Source of the DNA: Bacillota bacterium
Lineage (GTDB): Bacteria > Bacillota > Sulfobacillia > Sulfobacillales > Sulfobacillaceae
Reading direction: 5' to 3'
NCBI GenBank assembly: GCA_021797825.1
Contig: JAJZZA010000030.1
Span: forward strand, 1-38,275
DNA length: 38,275 bases
Part shown: positions 4,078-36,634 of the stretch, piece by piece
Layout of the letters: each line of letters starts with the position of its first letter
Numbering within the stretch: the first letter of the stretch is position 1
The notes under the pieces: generated by a model
Told to the model about the DNA's origin: nothing
Database searches by the model: none
The model's input: the letters and a program-made list of their open reading frames with translations, nothing else
Made by a program: the position numbers and the translations under genes

Positions 4078-4183
4078 CTTCTCATCTCCAAGAACATCTG
4101 TTCTTCAGGAATTGGCACCCTCCCACGCATGCGGGGTTGCCGGGTTTCATCGGGCCAGTCCCTCCACCACTCTGGATAAGAAG
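4078..4183 (-). promoter_or_regulatory. SAM-I (S-box) riboswitch
   Basis: The minus strand carries the conserved S-box core in order: CTTATCCAGAG, GGTGGAGGGACTGGCCC, GATGAAACCCGGCAACC, GGTGCCAATTCCTG and GAGATGAG. Helix P1 is nine perfect pairs, 4183-4175 with 4086-4078. A terminator follows directly, so SAM binding should stabilise P1, allow the terminator to form and switch off the three met genes. This is the strongest regulatory call in the window. Confidence 0.97.
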
Positions 4184-26467: not shown

Positions 26468-27622
26468 GTGCCACACGCGCGCCATCCCGAGAGCACGATC
26501 GTCCATATCGGAGCGGGACAAGATCCCGCATACGGGGCGGTCAGCGCCCCCATCTACCAGACCGTAACCTATCAGCACCCCGGATCCGGCTTGGGCCCTT
26601 TTGACTATACCCGCACCGTGAATCCCACGCGCAGCGGCTTGGCCCGGGGCCTCGCCGACCTCGAAGCGGCGGCCGGGGCCAGTCTGTTTTCATCGGGCAT
26701 GGCTGCCATCACGGCTTTGTGCCATCTGTTGGATAAGGAGAGCCATGTGGTCCTTACCGAAGATGTTTACGGCGGCACCTACCGTTTGCTGGTCGATGTG
26801 TTTCAACGCTTTGGGTTAAGCTTTTCGTTTGTCGACACGCGCCACCCGGACCGGGTGGTTAAGGCCTTTCGGCCCAACACCCGCCTGTTGTTCGTGGAAA
26901 CCCCGTCGAACCCGCTGCTGCAGATTACCGACCTGGTCGCCATGCGCGAGATTGCCCATCAGCATGACGCCTGGCTGGCGGTGGATAACACCTTCATGAC
27001 ACCCCTCCGCCAGCGTCCGCTCGACCTCGGCGCAGATTTCAGCATCTACAGCGCCACCAAGTATCTTGCCGGCCACAATGATGTCCTCGCCGGAGCAATC
27101 GTAGCGAGCTCAAGCGAGCTGGCCGCCCGCGTCGACGAGCTGGCCAACGCCACCGGCGGGGTACTGGCGCCGTTTGACGCTTGGCTGGTCATGCGCGGGA
27201 TCAAGACCCTGGCCGCCCGCTTGGATCGTCAGGAAAAAACCGCCCGGCAGCTGGCAACCTTTTTGGCCCAACGCCGGGATGTGGTCCGCGTCTATTACCC
27301 CGGTCTGGAAGCATCCGGCGGCCGTGATGCGCATGCCCGCCAAGCCTCGGGGCCCGGCGCCATGCTGTCTTTTCAGCTTCAGTCCGCCGGGCACGTCCCC
27401 CGTCTGATGGATGCCCTGCAGGTGATTCTGCCCGCCGTCAGCCTGGGTGGGGTGGAATCGCTCATTACCCATCCGTTTACCGAAACGCATCGGGAATTTC
27501 CCGAGCACGAGCGCTATCGGCTGGGAATCGTCCCCGGTCTCCTGCGTTTGTCGGTGGGGCTGGAGCATCCGGGCGATTTGCAAGACGATTTGGCCCAGGC
27601 GCTGGATCGCCTCGGGCGATAA
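26468..27622 (+). CDS. Trans-sulfuration PLP enzyme (cystathionine gamma-synthase/lyase type)
   Basis: A 384-residue Cys/Met-metabolism PLP enzyme. The PLP lysine is K198 in YSATKYLAGH, D173 in AVDNTF holds the ring nitrogen, and the intersubunit phosphate contact is FDYTRTVNPT (45-54). SSGMAA near 75-80 and ETPSNP near 144-149 are canonical. Members make or split cystathionine, or act on O-acylhomoserine or methionine, and sequence alone does not settle which. The GTG start has GAGGAGG 5 nt upstream. It is encoded directly before a second enzyme of the same family, as in Bacillus metI-metC, which favours cystathionine gamma-synthase for this one. Confidence 0.9.
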   Translation: MPHARHPESTIVHIGAGQDPAYGAVSAPIYQTVTYQHPGSGLGPFDYTRTVNPTRSGLARGLADLEAAAGASLFSSGMAAITALCHLLDKESHVVLTEDVYGGTYRLLVDVFQRFGLSFSFVDTRHPDRVVKAFRPNTRLLFVETPSNPLLQITDLVAMREIAHQHDAWLAVDNTFMTPLRQRPLDLGADFSIYSATKYLAGHNDVLAGAIVASSSELAARVDELANATGGVLAPFDAWLVMRGIKTLAARLDRQEKTARQLATFLAQRRDVVRVYYPGLEASGGRDAHARQASGPGAMLSFQLQSAGHVPRLMDALQVILPAVSLGGVESLITHPFTETHREFPEHERYRLGIVPGLLRLSVGLEHPGDLQDDLAQALDRLGR

Positions 27623-27657
27623 CCGCCGGCCCATTTCATCGAAGGAGCGTACCCGCC

Positions 27658-28833
27658 ATGCCCGAGCAGTCCGACCAGACTCCCCGCCCGGATCCCGACA
27701 CCCGCTTCATCCATAGTCCGGCCGATCCGGACGCCGCTTACCACGCGGTCATGCCGCCGGTTTACCGCGCCACCACCTTTCATCAGCCGGACCCTTGGGA
27801 ATCCGGGGCCTATGATTACGGGCGGTCGGGCAATCCCACCCGTCACGCGTTTGAAGAGGCCATGGCTTCCCTTGAGGGCGGCCAGCGGGGATTGGCCTTC
27901 GCCTCCGGCAATGCCGCCCTGACCGCGTTTTTCCTGTTGTTCGGCGCCGGCGACCACCTGGTAGTCACCGAAGACTGCCAAGGCGGCACCCAACGCATTT
28001 TGCGCGGCGTCTTTCGGCGATTCGGCCTCTCCGTCACCTATGCCGACACCAGCCGGCTGGACCAAGTGCAGGCCGCAGTTCGTCCCGAGACGCGAGCGAT
28101 TCTGGTGGAGAATTTTTCTAACCCCTTTCTCTGGGTCACGGATATCCCCGCACTGGCCGACTGGGCCCATGGCCAAGGCTTGTTGCTGGCGGTCGACAAC
28201 ACCTTTGTCACCCCCTATTTGCAAAACCCGCTGAAACTGGGGGCGGACCTGGTCCTGCATTCCGCCACCAAAATGATCAGCGGACATTCGGATTTGACCG
28301 GCGGCATTGCGGTCGCCCGCGACCGGGAATTGGCGGCCCGACTCTATTTCATCCAAAACAGCTGCGGGGCCATCCTCTCCCCGGACGACGCCTATCAGGC
28401 GCACCGCGGGCTTAAGACCTTGCCGGTGCGCATGCGCCAAGCCGCCGCCAGCGCCCTCGCCTTAGCCGGTCAACTGAGTGACCTGCCCGCCGTGGAAGCG
28501 GTCTATTATCCCGGACTGCCTTCCCATCCCGGCCACGCCGTGGCCTGCGCCACCATGCGCGGCTTTGGCCAGATGGTCACTTTTCGCCTGCGCGATCCGG
28601 CCTGGATCCCGGACTTGGTGCAGCACCTCCGCTGGGCTCGGGTGGGCGCCGGATTGGGGGGGACCGAAACCATCGTCTCGCTGCCCGAATTGCATTGCCA
28701 TGCCGCCTTAACCCCGGACGAACGCCGGGCCCGGCACATTACCAGCGACGTCATCCGGGTCTCGGTCGGACTCGAAACCGCGCAAGACATCCTCGACGAT
28801 CTGCTGGGCGCTATTCGCCGGGCCGCATCCTAA
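27658..28833 (+). CDS. Second trans-sulfuration PLP enzyme (cystathionine beta-lyase-like)
   Basis: A 391-residue enzyme of the same family as its upstream neighbour. Key residues are K205 in HSATKMISGHSD, D180 in AVDNTF, and YDYGRSGNPT (52-61). The segment that is usually ETPSNP reads ENFSNP (151-156), close to the substrate and cofactor pocket, which may signal a shifted specificity. Paired with the first enzyme it would take cystathionine to homocysteine for the methionine synthases at 143-3981. The ATG has AAGGAG about 10 nt upstream, 35 bp after the first gene. Confidence 0.88.
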   Translation: MPEQSDQTPRPDPDTRFIHSPADPDAAYHAVMPPVYRATTFHQPDPWESGAYDYGRSGNPTRHAFEEAMASLEGGQRGLAFASGNAALTAFFLLFGAGDHLVVTEDCQGGTQRILRGVFRRFGLSVTYADTSRLDQVQAAVRPETRAILVENFSNPFLWVTDIPALADWAHGQGLLLAVDNTFVTPYLQNPLKLGADLVLHSATKMISGHSDLTGGIAVARDRELAARLYFIQNSCGAILSPDDAYQAHRGLKTLPVRMRQAAASALALAGQLSDLPAVEAVYYPGLPSHPGHAVACATMRGFGQMVTFRLRDPAWIPDLVQHLRWARVGAGLGGTETIVSLPELHCHAALTPDERRARHITSDVIRVSVGLETAQDILDDLLGAIRRAAS

Positions 28834-30679: not shown

Positions 30680-30789
30680 GGAGCAAGCAATGGGTCTCGT
30701 TGGTCATGGTGTTGACCAGAACGTCATCGAAATGCCGGCGGAAATCCGGGCTAATAACACCTACGCATCGCGGGAGGTGTTTTGTTTTG
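30680..30789 (+). ncRNA. Structured leader RNA, class unknown
   Basis: About 110 nt after a promoter. It folds into CGTT-GGTCA (30698-30706) with TGACC-AG-AACG (30713-30723), then a CCGG region near 30735-30750. It ends with an AACACCT/AGGTGTT stem (30756-30762 with 30775-30781) followed by TTTGTTTTG. The last stem could be a terminator, and it also hides a GGGAGGTG ribosome site (30772-30779). It matches no riboswitch class that I know; SAM, THF, ZTP and fluoride cores were looked for and not found. It may be a cis-regulator of the downstream genes or a small RNA. Confidence 0.45.
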
Positions 30790-31053
30790 CGCCAGCGCCG
30801 GGCTGCGGGTGAGGTGACTCGCCTCATCCGCAGGCCGCGCGGGGCGATGGTGGGCCTGACGGTCATTCACCGCCGCGCCAGCCGTGGGGTGGGACTGCCG
30901 GCACCCGGCGGCTCCGCGGGTGCGAAAAGCCCGCAGACTTGGGCGGCACCACCCGCCTTTTCAACATCTTGGCCCGGAAGTCGCGATGAGCGCCGGCACC
31001 GCGCCGGTGGGGCCGGTGCCATCGCGGCGGGGCGTGGGAGGTCTCGCTCGTGA
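30787..31053 (+). CDS. Possible 88-residue Arg/Gly/Ala-rich ORF
   Basis: A TTG start lies 7 nt after a strong GGGAGGTG site, and the frame ends in a TGA that overlaps the GTG start of the first MutS-like gene (GTGA). That layout suits translational coupling. The product is rich in Arg, Ala and Gly (for example TRLIRRPRGAMVG) and has no recognisable domain. The codon pattern is not clearly coding and the DNA is full of hairpins, so this may be a chance frame within a structured leader. Confidence 0.25.
   Translation: MRQRRAAGEVTRLIRRPRGAMVGLTVIHRRASRGVGLPAPGGSAGAKSPQTWAAPPAFSTSWPGSRDERRHRAGGAGAIAAGRGRSRS
30803..30833 (+). repeat. 12-bp hairpin in the MutS-like operon leader
   Basis: CTGCGGGTGAGG (30803-30814) pairs with CCTCATCCGCAG (30822-30833) over twelve positions, one a G-U wobble, around a TGACTCG loop. 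It lies 20 nt past the possible TTG start. It is not followed by a T-run, so it is more likely a regulatory or stabilising stem than a terminator. Confidence 0.5.
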
Positions 31054-32579
31054 CATTTTGCAGCCTGTTGTTTCCCAACCCGGAGCAGCGTCCCTCCATC
31101 GAACCGCGGGACACGCCCGTCTTTTGGGGGGACTTGCATTTGGATCAGATTATCGACGCCATCACCGCCGACAAGGCCGAATACGATTTGCAGCCATTTT
31201 TTCGCACGCCCTTGCATGACCTCGACACCATCCAATATCGCCAGGAAATCATGCGGGACCTGGCAATCCCCGCCCTTTTCGAGCGCATCCAGGCTTTTGC
31301 GAAGCAAATGCGCGCCATGCGCGAACACCGCGCGCAAGCTGACAAACTGTACTACCCGCGTCAAAAAGCGGCCTGGTTTCTGGATGCGGCCGCCATTTAT
31401 TGTCAGGGCGTCACGCGCCTGGCGGCGGACTTGGCCGCAGGCGGGTTCACCGCACGCGGATTGTGCGACTTTCGCGATTATCTGACGCGCTATGTCCAAA
31501 CCGACCGCTTCACCGCCTTTTGTCAGGAGACCCAACAGGTTCTGGACGAGCTGGCCAGCGTGCGCTACCGCCTGCACATCAAAGGACAACGCATTGCGGT
31601 GCACGCTTTCACCGCGGACCACGATTACAGCGCCGACGTGCAGGAAACCTTCGCGAAATTCAGGCAGGGAGCGGTCAAACAATACGACGTGAGATTTCCC
31701 GACGAAGCGGACATGAACCATGTGGAGGCGGAGGTGCTGGAGATGGTCGCAAGGCTCTATCCGGACGTGTTTTCTCACTTGGAGACCTATCACGCGACCC
31801 GTCAGGACTATCTGGATGAAACGGTTGGCGCGTTTGATCGGGAAATCCAGTTCTATCTTGCTGTGCGCGAATATGTCACCCGATTTGAACGGGAGGGATT
31901 GCCCTTTTGCTATCCGCAGGTCTCCCCTAGCAAGGACATTTACGCCGATGAGACATTTGACGCGGCGCTGGCGCATAAATTGCTCACCACCCGCGCGCCG
32001 GTGGTGCGTAATGATTTTTCCCTCACCGAGCCCGAACGCATTCTAGTCGTTTCCGGGCCCAACCAGGGCGGGAAAACCACCTTCGCCCGCATGTTCGGAC
32101 AACTGCATTACTTGGCCCGTCTCGGCTGTCCGGTGCCCGGCACCAGGGCTCGCCTTTTCCTCTGCGATCAGGTGTTGACGCACTTTGAAAAGGAAGAGAC
32201 TCTGGAGAATCTCCGCGGCAAACTGCAGGACGACCTGATCCGGATTCATCAGATTCTCTCGCAGGCCACCCCCCGCAGCATTGTCATCATGAACGAAATT
32301 TTTACCTCCACCACCTTAGAAGACGCGATTTACTTGAGCAAGCAGGTCATGGCGCAAATAAGCCGCCTGGATTTGCTCAGCGTCTGGGTCACCTTCATCG
32401 ATGAACTGGCGTCGTTCAACGAGAAGACCGTCAGCCTGGTCAGCACGGTGGTACCCGAACAACCCGCCGTGCGCACCTACCGAATTGTGCGGCGGCCGGC
32501 GGATGGTCTGTCGTACGCCCTGTCCATTGCCGAAAAACACCACGTCACCTATGCGTGGCTAAAGGAGCGGATACGGTGA
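31050..32579 (+). CDS. MutS-like ATPase, first of a pair
   Basis: A 509-residue protein with the MutS core/lever and ATPase domains but without the N-terminal mismatch-recognition and connector domains of MutS (about 850 residues). The core motif reads DLDTIQYRQEIM (57-68). Walker A is GPNQGGKTT (336-344), against GPNMGGKST in MutS. The Walker B region is SIVIMNEIFTSTTLEDA, with Asn415 where MutS has Asp and Glu416 kept. It probably binds DNA or a DNA structure as a dimer, most likely with the next gene's product. The GTG start has GGGAGG 8 nt upstream. It is not MutS2 (no SMR domain), and mismatch repair is not implied. Confidence 0.85.
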   Translation: MTFCSLLFPNPEQRPSIEPRDTPVFWGDLHLDQIIDAITADKAEYDLQPFFRTPLHDLDTIQYRQEIMRDLAIPALFERIQAFAKQMRAMREHRAQADKLYYPRQKAAWFLDAAAIYCQGVTRLAADLAAGGFTARGLCDFRDYLTRYVQTDRFTAFCQETQQVLDELASVRYRLHIKGQRIAVHAFTADHDYSADVQETFAKFRQGAVKQYDVRFPDEADMNHVEAEVLEMVARLYPDVFSHLETYHATRQDYLDETVGAFDREIQFYLAVREYVTRFEREGLPFCYPQVSPSKDIYADETFDAALAHKLLTTRAPVVRNDFSLTEPERILVVSGPNQGGKTTFARMFGQLHYLARLGCPVPGTRARLFLCDQVLTHFEKEETLENLRGKLQDDLIRIHQILSQATPRSIVIMNEIFTSTTLEDAIYLSKQVMAQISRLDLLSVWVTFIDELASFNEKTVSLVSTVVPEQPAVRTYRIVRRPADGLSYALSIAEKHHVTYAWLKERIR

Positions 32580-34075
32580 AGGCGTATCTCATGTATCCCG
32601 AGCGGGACTTCGACCTGGGCGCCACACTGCCGCCCAATGCCTCTCTCCTGACCCAAGACCTGGAATTGGCCACGCTCTGGGACGCCATGGCAGATGGGGA
32701 CGCATTTCTCCGGGAAGTGGCCCGGCACGCGGTGCTGGACGGGGTTAGCGATCTGGACACCATCCGCTATCGGCAACATATTCTGGCCGATTGCCTGAAC
32801 AATCCGTCGGTGGTGCGAGAGCTCTACGCGCTGGCGACCGCGGCGATTGACGGCGAGAAAAGGAATTACTGGGGTCTTTTCAGCCACTATCCCAGCACCA
32901 TCCTGCATCGGTCGATCGCAGTGCTCAAGATGTTCGCCGACATGCTGACCCAACTCACCCAGATCGCGGAACATCACGCCCAGCAATTTGAGTCTGAGGG
33001 CTTTACGCGGTTTTTTGCGATGGTTGCCCGAGAATTGGGGACGGAATACCTCGCCCGCATCCACCACCATCTCCGCGACCTGCAATTTCGGGACGGGCTC
33101 TGGATGAGTGCGTCGTTGGGAAAGGGCAACAAGGGGACCCATTACATTCTGCACCGCCCGCCCACGGCGAAACAGCCCCGTTGGATCAAGCGGCTGGCAG
33201 CCCAACATCCGCCGGTGTACAGCTATGTGGTCGCCGACCGCGACGAAACCGGCGCCAAGGCCCTGTCCGAATTGCGGGATCGCGGGATCAACCGGGTGGC
33301 TAACGCGTTGGCTCAGTCCACCGATCACATTCTGAGTTTCTTTACCCTGTTGCGCACCGAATTGGCCTTTTACGTGGGTTGCTTAAATCTCCATGAAACC
33401 CTGGGCAAAAAGGGCGAGCCGTTGGCGTTTCCCCACCCGGCGGCGTCCGAGCAACGCCGATTGGATTTTCGGGGGTTGTACGATGTCTGTTTGGCGTTGC
33501 GCCTGGATCATCGCGTCGTGGGCAATACGGTGGCGGCAGACGGCAAAGACCTCATCTTCGTCACCGGCGCCAACCAGGGCGGCAAGTCGACTTTTTTACG
33601 GAGCATCGGGCTAGCTCAACTGATGATGCAGTGCGGCATGTTTGTGGCAGCTGAGGCTTTTTCGGCCAATGTCAGCGAGCACCTGTTTACCCACTACAAA
33701 CGGGAAGAAGACCGGGCCATGAATAGCGGCAAACTGGATGAAGAGGTCGGCCGCATGAGCGACATCGCCGACCAGGTCACCGCTCATTCGTTGGTGCTGT
33801 TCAATGAATCATTTGCCGCCACCAACGAACGGGAAGGTTCGGAAATTGCCCGGCAGATCGTCAGTGCCTTACTGGAAAAACACATCAAGGTGGTCTTTGT
33901 CACCCATTTGTATGAGTTGGCGCGCGGGTTTCACGACAAACACCTGGCCAACGCCTTGTTTCTCCGGGCGCAAAGGCAAGCCGACGGCGGACGGACGTTT
34001 ACCCTTCACGAAGGGAAGCCCTTAAACACGAGTCATGGCGACGATTTGTACCGGCAGATTTTCAAAACCGTTTGA
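32576..34075 (+). CDS. MutS-like ATPase, second of a pair
   Basis: A 499-residue paralogue of the upstream protein with the same layout: DLDTIRYRQHIL (59-70), Walker A GANQGGKST (331-339) and Walker B SLVLFNESFAATNEREG with N410-E411. It also has VTHLYELA, like the MutS H-loop region. The GTG start at 32576 overlaps the upstream stop as GTGA and has AAAGGAG 8 nt upstream, so the longer ATG frame from 32555 is rejected. Coupled translation of two diverged paralogues points to a heterodimer, as with eukaryotic MSH pairs. Both keep the Asn in place of the Walker B Asp, so it is a family trait rather than decay. Confidence 0.85.
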   Translation: MKAYLMYPERDFDLGATLPPNASLLTQDLELATLWDAMADGDAFLREVARHAVLDGVSDLDTIRYRQHILADCLNNPSVVRELYALATAAIDGEKRNYWGLFSHYPSTILHRSIAVLKMFADMLTQLTQIAEHHAQQFESEGFTRFFAMVARELGTEYLARIHHHLRDLQFRDGLWMSASLGKGNKGTHYILHRPPTAKQPRWIKRLAAQHPPVYSYVVADRDETGAKALSELRDRGINRVANALAQSTDHILSFFTLLRTELAFYVGCLNLHETLGKKGEPLAFPHPAASEQRRLDFRGLYDVCLALRLDHRVVGNTVAADGKDLIFVTGANQGGKSTFLRSIGLAQLMMQCGMFVAAEAFSANVSEHLFTHYKREEDRAMNSGKLDEEVGRMSDIADQVTAHSLVLFNESFAATNEREGSEIARQIVSALLEKHIKVVFVTHLYELARGFHDKHLANALFLRAQRQADGGRTFTLHEGKPLNTSHGDDLYRQIFKTV

Positions 34076-34713: not shown

Positions 34714-35376
34714 ATGAAACGCACATTAACCAGTCATGAGGTGGCTCGCCTGCTCGGGGTGAACATCAAGACCATTCAACGGTGGGATCGCGAGGGCCGA
34801 CTTAAACCTGCCGGTCGGACGGCCACGGGTCGCCGTTACTATACTGAAGATCAAATTCTGGCCTTCCGACATCAGCGGCCTGCCACGACGGGTCCTCGTA
34901 AGATCGTGGCCTATTGCCGGGTCAGCAGCCAGAGTCAGCGGCCCGATTTGAAAAACCAGCGGCTCGCGTTGGAACAGTTCTGTACCGCCCGCGGACTCGC
35001 CAATGTGGAGTTCCTCGAAGAGATTGGCGGGGGGATGAATTTTGGTCGCAAGCGGTTTTTGGCATTGATGGATGCGGTAGAGGCGGGAGAGGTAAGCGCT
35101 TTGATGCTGGCGCATAAAGATCGTTTGACTCGGTTCGGTTACGAATGGTTCGAGCGATTCTGCCAGCAACACGGGTGCGAAATTCTGGTCCTCAATCAAG
35201 AGCATTTGTCACCCGAGCAGGAACTCGTCCAAGACTTACTCACCATTACGCATGTCTTCTCTGCCCGGTTGTACGGATTGCGGAACTATCGCAAAAGCTT
35301 AAAGGAGGCTATCCATGCCGACGTTAGCGCACAAGATTCGACTCGATCCGACGCCGGATCAGATCCAGTACTTTAA
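34714..35376 (+). CDS. tnpA: IS607 serine recombinase TnpA
   Basis: A 220-residue transposase. An N-terminal MerR-like helix-turn-helix (SHEVARLLGVNIKTIQRWDR, 7-26) precedes a serine recombinase domain with YCRVSS (catalytic Ser at about 71). LMLAHKDRLTRFGYEWFE is the conserved region that follows. This HTH-first order is typical of IS607 and opposite to phage serine integrases. It cuts and joins DNA through a Ser-DNA link. The final 20 codons overlap tnpB. The upstream ribosome site is weak. Confidence 0.95.
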   Translation: MKRTLTSHEVARLLGVNIKTIQRWDREGRLKPAGRTATGRRYYTEDQILAFRHQRPATTGPRKIVAYCRVSSQSQRPDLKNQRLALEQFCTARGLANVEFLEEIGGGMNFGRKRFLALMDAVEAGEVSALMLAHKDRLTRFGYEWFERFCQQHGCEILVLNQEHLSPEQELVQDLLTITHVFSARLYGLRNYRKSLKEAIHADVSAQDSTRSDAGSDPVL

Positions 35377-36634
35377 GCAAGCGTCCGGGACTGCCCGATT
35401 TGTGTGGAATTGGGCGCTGGATGAGTGGAATCGCCGTTATGCTGCCGGGCAGAAGCCCCAGGCCCCTGCCCTGAAGAAGCAATTTAATGCCCTGAAGTAT
35501 CAGCAGTTTCCGTGGTTACGGAACATTCATCGGGACGCCCATGCCCAACCGTTTGCCGACTTAGCCGATGCGTGGCTGCGATTCTTCACGGGGCAAAATG
35601 ATCGTCCAGTGTTTAAGAAAAAAGGGGAAACCTCCGACAGCTTCTATGTGGCGAACGATAAGTTTCAGGTGGCAGATCGCCGCGTGAAACTGCCGAAAAT
35701 CGGCTGGGTGCGCTTGCGGGAATCGCTCCGATTCCCCGGCAAAATCTTGGGGGCTCGGGTCGTCCGTGACGCCGATCAGTGGTTTTTGTCGGTGCCAGTG
35801 TCCGTACCCGATTCTATCTATTACCGGACCCGCACGGGTCAGGGTGTTGAAGGGGTGGATGTCGGTGTCAAGACGTTTGCCACCCTTTCCACAGGGAAAA
35901 AGATCGTAGGACCGAAAGCCCACCGCCGCGCTTTGCGCCGCTTAAAAATACGGCAGCGGGCCATCACTCGCAAGATGCAAGCCGCAAAAACCCCAATCGG
36001 ATTGGCTCCGCAGGATCCGCTCCCTCAAGGAATTCGGCTACCGCGCAGCCGGAATTGGGATAAGGCCAAAAACCATGTGGCCCGGACCCATCTTCGCATT
36101 GCCCATCTTCGCCAAGACTTCTTGCACAAAACGTCCACCCGGCTCTGTCGCGAAAACCAAGCGGTGGGGATCGAGACGTTATCGGTCAAAGGGATGATGG
36201 CGAATCATCGGTTGGCACGGAGCATTGCCGACCAGGGGTTTGGCCAGTTCTATGCTTTATGGCAATACAAAGCGGATCGGTATGGAACGCAATTGATCGA
36301 AGCCGACCGCTGGTTTCCCAGCAGTAAACTCTGCTCAACACCCGGCTGCGGCTATCTCAAGAAAGATCTCACCTTAAAAGATCGTTCGTGGACATGCCCG
36401 GGGTGCGGGGTCACACACGACCGGGATGTCAACGCTGCGATCAATCTTAAAGGGCTGGCCACCCCAACGGCCCTACCTGTGGCGACGCGGCCCGTAAGGA
36501 CCGCGACGGTGCCGGAACACCCCGACATCGGCGGGAAAGTCACGCCTGCCAGACACGAAGCCACACCCGAGAGCTTGCTCTCGGCTTCGGGGCAGGAAGA
36601 AGTCGGGGCGCACCATTGCGCACCGATTTTATAG
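35315..36634 (+). CDS. tnpB: TnpB RNA-guided nuclease (IS607-associated)
   Basis: A 439-residue protein with the OrfB/TnpB layout. The RuvC residues are D182 in GVDVGVKTF, E287 in GIETLS and D371 in HDRDVNAAINL. The zinc ribbon is C340-C345 and C361-C364. All appear intact. TnpB cuts DNA matching the guide carried at the 3' end of its omega RNA and helps the element persist. The ATG has AAAGGAGG 6 nt upstream. Residues after about 380 lack domain character and are encoded by the RNA-like folded end, so this tail may be a by-product of the overlap. Confidence 0.95.
   Translation: MPTLAHKIRLDPTPDQIQYFKQASGTARFVWNWALDEWNRRYAAGQKPQAPALKKQFNALKYQQFPWLRNIHRDAHAQPFADLADAWLRFFTGQNDRPVFKKKGETSDSFYVANDKFQVADRRVKLPKIGWVRLRESLRFPGKILGARVVRDADQWFLSVPVSVPDSIYYRTRTGQGVEGVDVGVKTFATLSTGKKIVGPKAHRRALRRLKIRQRAITRKMQAAKTPIGLAPQDPLPQGIRLPRSRNWDKAKNHVARTHLRIAHLRQDFLHKTSTRLCRENQAVGIETLSVKGMMANHRLARSIADQGFGQFYALWQYKADRYGTQLIEADRWFPSSKLCSTPGCGYLKKDLTLKDRSWTCPGCGVTHDRDVNAAINLKGLATPTALPVATRPVRTATVPEHPDIGGKVTPARHEATPESLLSASGQEEVGAHHCAPIL
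36545..36634 (+). ncRNA. Probable omega RNA (TnpB guide scaffold) 3' end
   Basis: A tiered stem is visible: CCTGCC (36545-36550) with GGCAGG (36591-36596), GAAG (36557-36560) with CTTC (36585-36588), and CCGAGAG (36567-36573) with CTCTCGG (36578-36584). A GCGCA/TGCGC hairpin (36608-36621) follows. All lie inside the 3' end of tnpB, where omega RNAs of related elements are located. The guide would be read from DNA just past the element's right end, probably near 36630-36650. The 5' limit of the RNA is unknown. Confidence 0.55.

Follow-up and report, generated by a model that had tools for sequence, protein, structure and literature searches.

This locus raises the question of what two overlapping genes for MutS-like ATPases do in a bacterium that has, besides them, a full-length MutS (863-aa frame) and a MutS2 (819-aa frame). 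The window, i.e., the whole analysed stretch of 38,275 nt (contig JAJZZA010000030.1, from a Bacillota bacterium of the Sulfobacillaceae), carries both genes on its forward strand. They are very probably a fluoride-regulated MutS4A/MutS4B pair, and the sequence comparisons below suggest that their most likely role is in the response to toxic fluoride, and not in phage defence or mismatch repair.

MutS4A lies at 31050..32579 (+), has a GTG start with GGGAGG upstream, and codes for a MutS core plus ATPase of 509 aa. MutS4B, at 32576..34075 (+), also codes for a MutS core plus ATPase (~499 aa), and its GTG start overlaps the stop of MutS4A by 4 nt (GTGA, 32576–32579). The preliminary description of this DNA had given the second gene a longer open reading frame (32555–34075, 506 aa). 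The GTG at 32576 is probably the start, and not 32555, because it forms the GTGA overlap, because AAAGGAG is found ~9 nt upstream of it, because the alignment of relatives to the longer frame begins at residue 8, and because the same 4-nt overlap occurs in 65 of 71 relatives. The coordinates of MutS4A and the overlap of the two genes are thus borne out, and it is the start of MutS4B that moves. The IS element noticed beside the pair is real: it is of the IS607 type (34714–36634, +), codes for a MerR-HTH serine resolvase and a TnpB (with a Cas12f1-like TNB domain), and comes directly after the pair. It was rejected as a partner: it is present behind this pair, but it does not recur next to the pair at other loci.

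Both genes had been described as paralogues of about 500 residues reduced to the MutS core and ATPase, and this is what one finds: both frames exist, each protein has a single Pfam domain, MutS_V (E = 9e-18 for A, 7e-21 for B), and the mismatch-recognition, connector, nuclease, and SMR domains are absent from both in Pfam. The AlphaFold models (pLDDT of 88.6 for A and 84.9 for B) match MutS, MSH2, and MutS2 across the core, lever, and ATPase, with best matches at Z = 32.3 for A and 31.0 for B. E. coli MutS is matched in VIA-align at Z = 29.5 by A, aligned from chain residue 171, and at Z = 28.4 by B, aligned from residue 261. Because the match to E. coli MutS begins around these residues, the predicted structures indicate that there is no mismatch-recognition domain, and that nothing, or no more than a remnant, is left of the MutL-binding connector. 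The peculiar Walker motifs had also been read correctly. Walker A is GPNQGGKTT in A and GANQGGKST in B, and Walker B has "NE" in both; the Asn is invariant among relatives (113/113 for A, 110/110 for B), and the Gln of Walker A is usual (109 of 113 motifs located in A, and most of those in B).

Mismatch repair (MutS1) was rejected as the function of the pair, since the proteins lack domains I (mismatch recognition) and II (connector), and since a MutS and a MutS2 are encoded separately in the genome. Membership in MutS2 was rejected as well. The pair shares with MutS2 the core fold and the lack of a mismatch-recognition domain, but it has no SMR nuclease domain, has the Asn in Walker B, is made of two genes, and falls outside the MutS2 clade, MutS2 being separately present in the genome.

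Genes A and B systematically co-occur. A profile search of a species-genome collection identified 80 MutS4A loci, in many bacterial phyla and in three archaeal MAGs. MutS4B adjoins MutS4A in 78 of these 80 named loci, the other two being cut by contig ends, so that A without B is not seen in any complete locus. Among 299 genomes sampled across the phylum, the strong matches to B fall at A loci, with a single extra one that is a fragment at a contig end. The pairwise distances of A and B are strongly correlated (Mantel r = 0.87, a value reached by none of 1000 permutations), and in a tree of 82 sequences they form two parallel sister clades, each with a support of 100, apart from MutS1, MutS2, and KamC. 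By these comparisons A and B are a co-inherited and co-evolving pair, which supports the earlier view of a dedicated pair and gives it a place of its own in the phylogeny of the family.

The same view took the pair as a candidate for an undescribed system, and this is not supported. As defined by Lin, Nei and Ma (2007), in the terms in which PMC5742357 cites them, MutS4A and MutS4B are adjacent, the stop of A overlaps the start of B, and both have the ATPase domain only. The window pair shares with the subfamily so described its adjacency, its stop/start overlap, its restriction to the ATPase, and its patchy, horizontally spread distribution. Hence, matched by gene structure and domain content, it is most likely MutS4A/MutS4B. 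Placement in a characterised subfamily with a known role was to refute the earlier reading, and the pair goes half of that way: its subfamily has a name, and the functions of that subfamily are described as "yet to be defined" (PMC5742357). Among the plasmids of PLSDB, MutS4A is found on 45, of which 21 are predicted to be conjugative and many come from Klebsiella, Enterobacter, and Citrobacter; most of these plasmid genes carry the annotation "DNA mismatch repair protein MutS".

Distant MutS4-like pairs (L095 125–1648, L097 3656–6720, and L098 9148–12221), with 24–27% identity, are found in one family of the phylum. They keep the Asn of Walker B and show the same split into A and B. Two of them are directly downstream of a protein of ~1035 aa, in a cluster that resembles glycoside hydrolases by sequence inspection only, and have no convincing fluoride riboswitch.

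Upstream of the pair there is a fluoride riboswitch aptamer (Rfam RF01734, the crcB motif) at 30693..30770 (+), absent from the preliminary description. In the Rfam scan of the window, run over all 4227 families, it scores 27.9 bits (E = 6.9e-4), short of the curated cut-off of 34. Because of this low score, an independent model, R1, was derived from fluoride riboswitches that are not upstream of MutS4, 19 in all, taken from this genome and related ones. R1 matches the site with 34.2 bits (E = 1.4e-7 in 1.28 Mb). In an alignment of 20 sequences including the window, with 94.4% of the cells paired, covariation supports P1, P3, and the pseudoknot (score of 0.340, against 0.140 when shuffled). 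The window sequence keeps P1 and the pseudoknot, with changes on both sides, and has the conserved residues; related genomes have stronger matches in the same place. Taken by itself, the aptamer folds with an unremarkable energy (z = 0.13) in a program that does not model pseudoknots. A clear SAM riboswitch also lies in the window, at 4079–4182 (−) with 89.6 bits, and two PLP enzymes of Cys/Met metabolism are at 26468–28833.

The aptamer overlaps a putative terminator hairpin at 30756..30781 (+), predicted by RNA folding, in which AACACCU pairs with AGGUGUU and is followed by UUGUUUU. The fold of 30754–30797 (−12.9 kcal/mol, z = −1.2) is weak on energy alone, and a simple terminator scan does not list the hairpin; a promoter scan upstream of the riboswitch returned nothing. 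Terminators overlapping crcB motifs were reported in 2010 (PMC2864571), and the arrangement found here corresponds to the usual layout of an ON switch. Because the 5′ arm of the hairpin is also the 3′ strand of the aptamer pseudoknot, binding of the ligand should prevent termination.

The association is found well beyond the window. Of the named loci, 76 extend 250 nt or more upstream of MutS4A; 51 of these have a same-strand fluoride riboswitch ending at most 600 nt upstream of the gene (median 105 nt) and 25 have none directly upstream; 62 have one somewhere in the locus, and 14 have none at E = 0.01. Riboswitches are ~30-fold denser upstream of MutS4A than elsewhere in these loci, and the loci combining riboswitch and MutS4A span 13 phyla. 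Among 41 related genomes, 13 of 22 MutS4A genes are directly behind a riboswitch, and, as a control, only 1 of 82 MutS1/MutS2 genes is within 6.5 kb of one. Among 398 genomes of the phylum, the riboswitch is present in 18 of the 19 with MutS4A against 138 of the 379 others (Fisher p = 3e-7). One decayed MutS4A (G009:C61:9836–11367, −), with several stops, retains a fluoride riboswitch in front of it, whose score exceeds the Rfam cut-off.

The neighbours of MutS4 are also those of the fluoride regulon. Named by sequence inspection, the recurrent ones are enolase, MFS, dynamin, hydrogenase/NDH subunits, PPase, CrcB, DUF190, Usp, and CPA2 antiporter. The dynamin-like GTPase is the second most frequent neighbour other than MutS (23 of 112 loci, e.g., L138 5918–7687). 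Independent annotation gives a similar picture on plasmids, where the pair is found with eno, crcB, gpmA, ppa, and usp: it is near crcB, eno, phosphoglycerate mutase, Usp, antiporter, and a DHHA2-domain protein in Klebsiella, near eno, ppa, dynamin, and DUF190 in Burkholderia, and near crcB, eno, and Usp in Rhodococcus. The genome of the window has five riboswitch matches, and the other four, on other contigs, precede an enolase, a pyrophosphatase with a HAD protein, and two genes of the NuoH/hydrogenase type. The pair thus has in common with the crcB regulon the upstream riboswitch and the companions enolase, PPase, CrcB, Usp, antiporter, and hydrogenase-type genes. A 2010 paper on crcB RNAs listed mutS among the genes behind them and called it DNA repair (Weinberg 2010, PMC2864571), and the same genes were repeated as "DNA repair proteins" later (PMC7266159); the gene found here is instead the MutS4 pair, not MutS1 or MutS2. 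Genes, pairing, riboswitch, regulon context, and conservation can all be read in the sequences themselves.

From these data we infer induction by fluoride, formation of a heterodimer, and a contribution to tolerance. When intracellular fluoride rises, the aptamer bound to Mg and fluoride would block the overlapping terminator, and transcription would then read into the two translationally coupled genes. Their products would probably form an obligate heterodimeric ATPase of the MutS fold, from which the domains for reading mismatches and binding MutL have been lost. Along with the other genes under fluoride switches in this genome (enolase, pyrophosphatase/HAD, and hydrogenase-4-type membrane subunits), it would help the cell to survive fluoride. 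As for its substrate, our first choice, which we put at slightly less than an even chance, is DNA or another nucleic acid, on which the heterodimer may act as an ATP-gated clamp, protecting or restarting it under fluoride stress. A role on DNA is favoured by the ability of the mutS4 operon of Mycobacterium yongonense to raise recombination in M. smegmatis, in an experiment that was not designed around fluoride (PMC5742357). This step of the explanation is held tentatively because the proteins have no domain for mismatches or for MutL, and because the distant sister pairs lie within a glycoside-hydrolase-like cluster and not near DNA repair genes.

The pair could instead act on proteins, as an ATP-driven machine of the MutS fold that frees Mg enzymes trapped by fluoride (enolase, pyrophosphatase, and others), much as KamC would do for a B12 enzyme; this has a modest chance of being right. 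Many members of the regulon are Mg enzymes poisoned by fluoride (PMC11139923, PMC5533749), which binds tightly in complexes with the metal of such active sites (PMC11139923), and the distant pairs lie in a sugar-hydrolase-like cluster. KamC (NF052383, lysine 5,6-aminomutase reactivase ATPase), which is annotated as a reactivase, is likewise a short MutS-like ATPase of ~500 aa, but it groups with MutS2 in the tree and not with MutS4, and its model gives 43.6 bits for A and 72.1 for B against a cut-off of 300. A KamC-like reactivase by descent was rejected on these grounds. KamC (L188–L193) branches with MutS2 and adds another lineage of short MutS-like ATPases, one whose annotated role lies outside DNA. 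That MutS4A/B is a fluoride-induced heterodimeric ATPase outside DNA repair, which remodels and reactivates fluoride-trapped Mg enzymes and whose invariant Walker B Asn adapts its own nucleotide site to fluoride, seems unlikely.

An action on ribosomes, easing translation stress under fluoride in the way of MutS2, which binds collided ribosomes, is distinctly improbable. The MutS2 core (7vuk_B) is among the best structural matches (Z = 30.1 for A and 28.7 for B), as is the ribosome-bound 7qv3_w (29.4 and 28.2), but MSH2 and MutS score equally well, there is no SMR domain, and the clade is apart from MutS2.

Still less credit can be given to phage or plasmid defence, suggested in the preliminary description, or to a recombination factor driving gene transfer (PMC5742357). 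The patchy distribution, the adjoining IS element, the conjugative plasmids, and the increase in recombination when M. smegmatis carries the mycobacterial pair are all compatible with such roles. Against them are the fluoride riboswitch and the regulon neighbours, none of the recurrent ones being a defence gene, and the lack of a meaningful match for the pair in PADLOC (best E = 0.022 and 0.052). The published view of MutS4 is one of DNA metabolism and recombination, and the evidence here is one of fluoride. Even the M. yongonense MutS4 island contains enolase and hydrogenase/NDH genes (PMC5742357), the make-up of a fluoride island. The same is found in M. branderi, where the pair on a plasmid (the plasmid being L228 1–17056) has enolase and hydrogenase/NDH genes nearby and falls inside both the A and B clades. 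A proven fluoride island has transposases at its flanks as well (PMC5533749).

That the match in the window is due to chance, this copy not being fluoride-regulated, is scarcely credible: its Rfam score is below the cut-off, but it is on the right strand and in the right place, upstream of a family strongly tied to RF01734, and the R1 E-value, the both-sided changes in P1 and the pseudoknot, the conserved residues, and the stronger matches in related genomes speak against it.

Both MutS4 (2007) and the "mutS" behind crcB RNAs (2010, PMC2864571) were known, the latter having gone unexplained since then, and what appears to be new is that the two are one. A literature search covering part of the primary papers found none linking the mutS of fluoride riboswitches to MutS4, and the literature on fluoride, MutS, and CrcB together yielded one plasmid paper, which does not link MutS to fluoride. 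The M. yongonense island, published as a driver of recombination, has the composition of a fluoride-resistance island and may be one. Many plasmid genes bearing the name "DNA mismatch repair protein MutS" probably have no part in mismatch repair. The identification would give MutS4 a clear inducer, and a phenotype, that can be tested.
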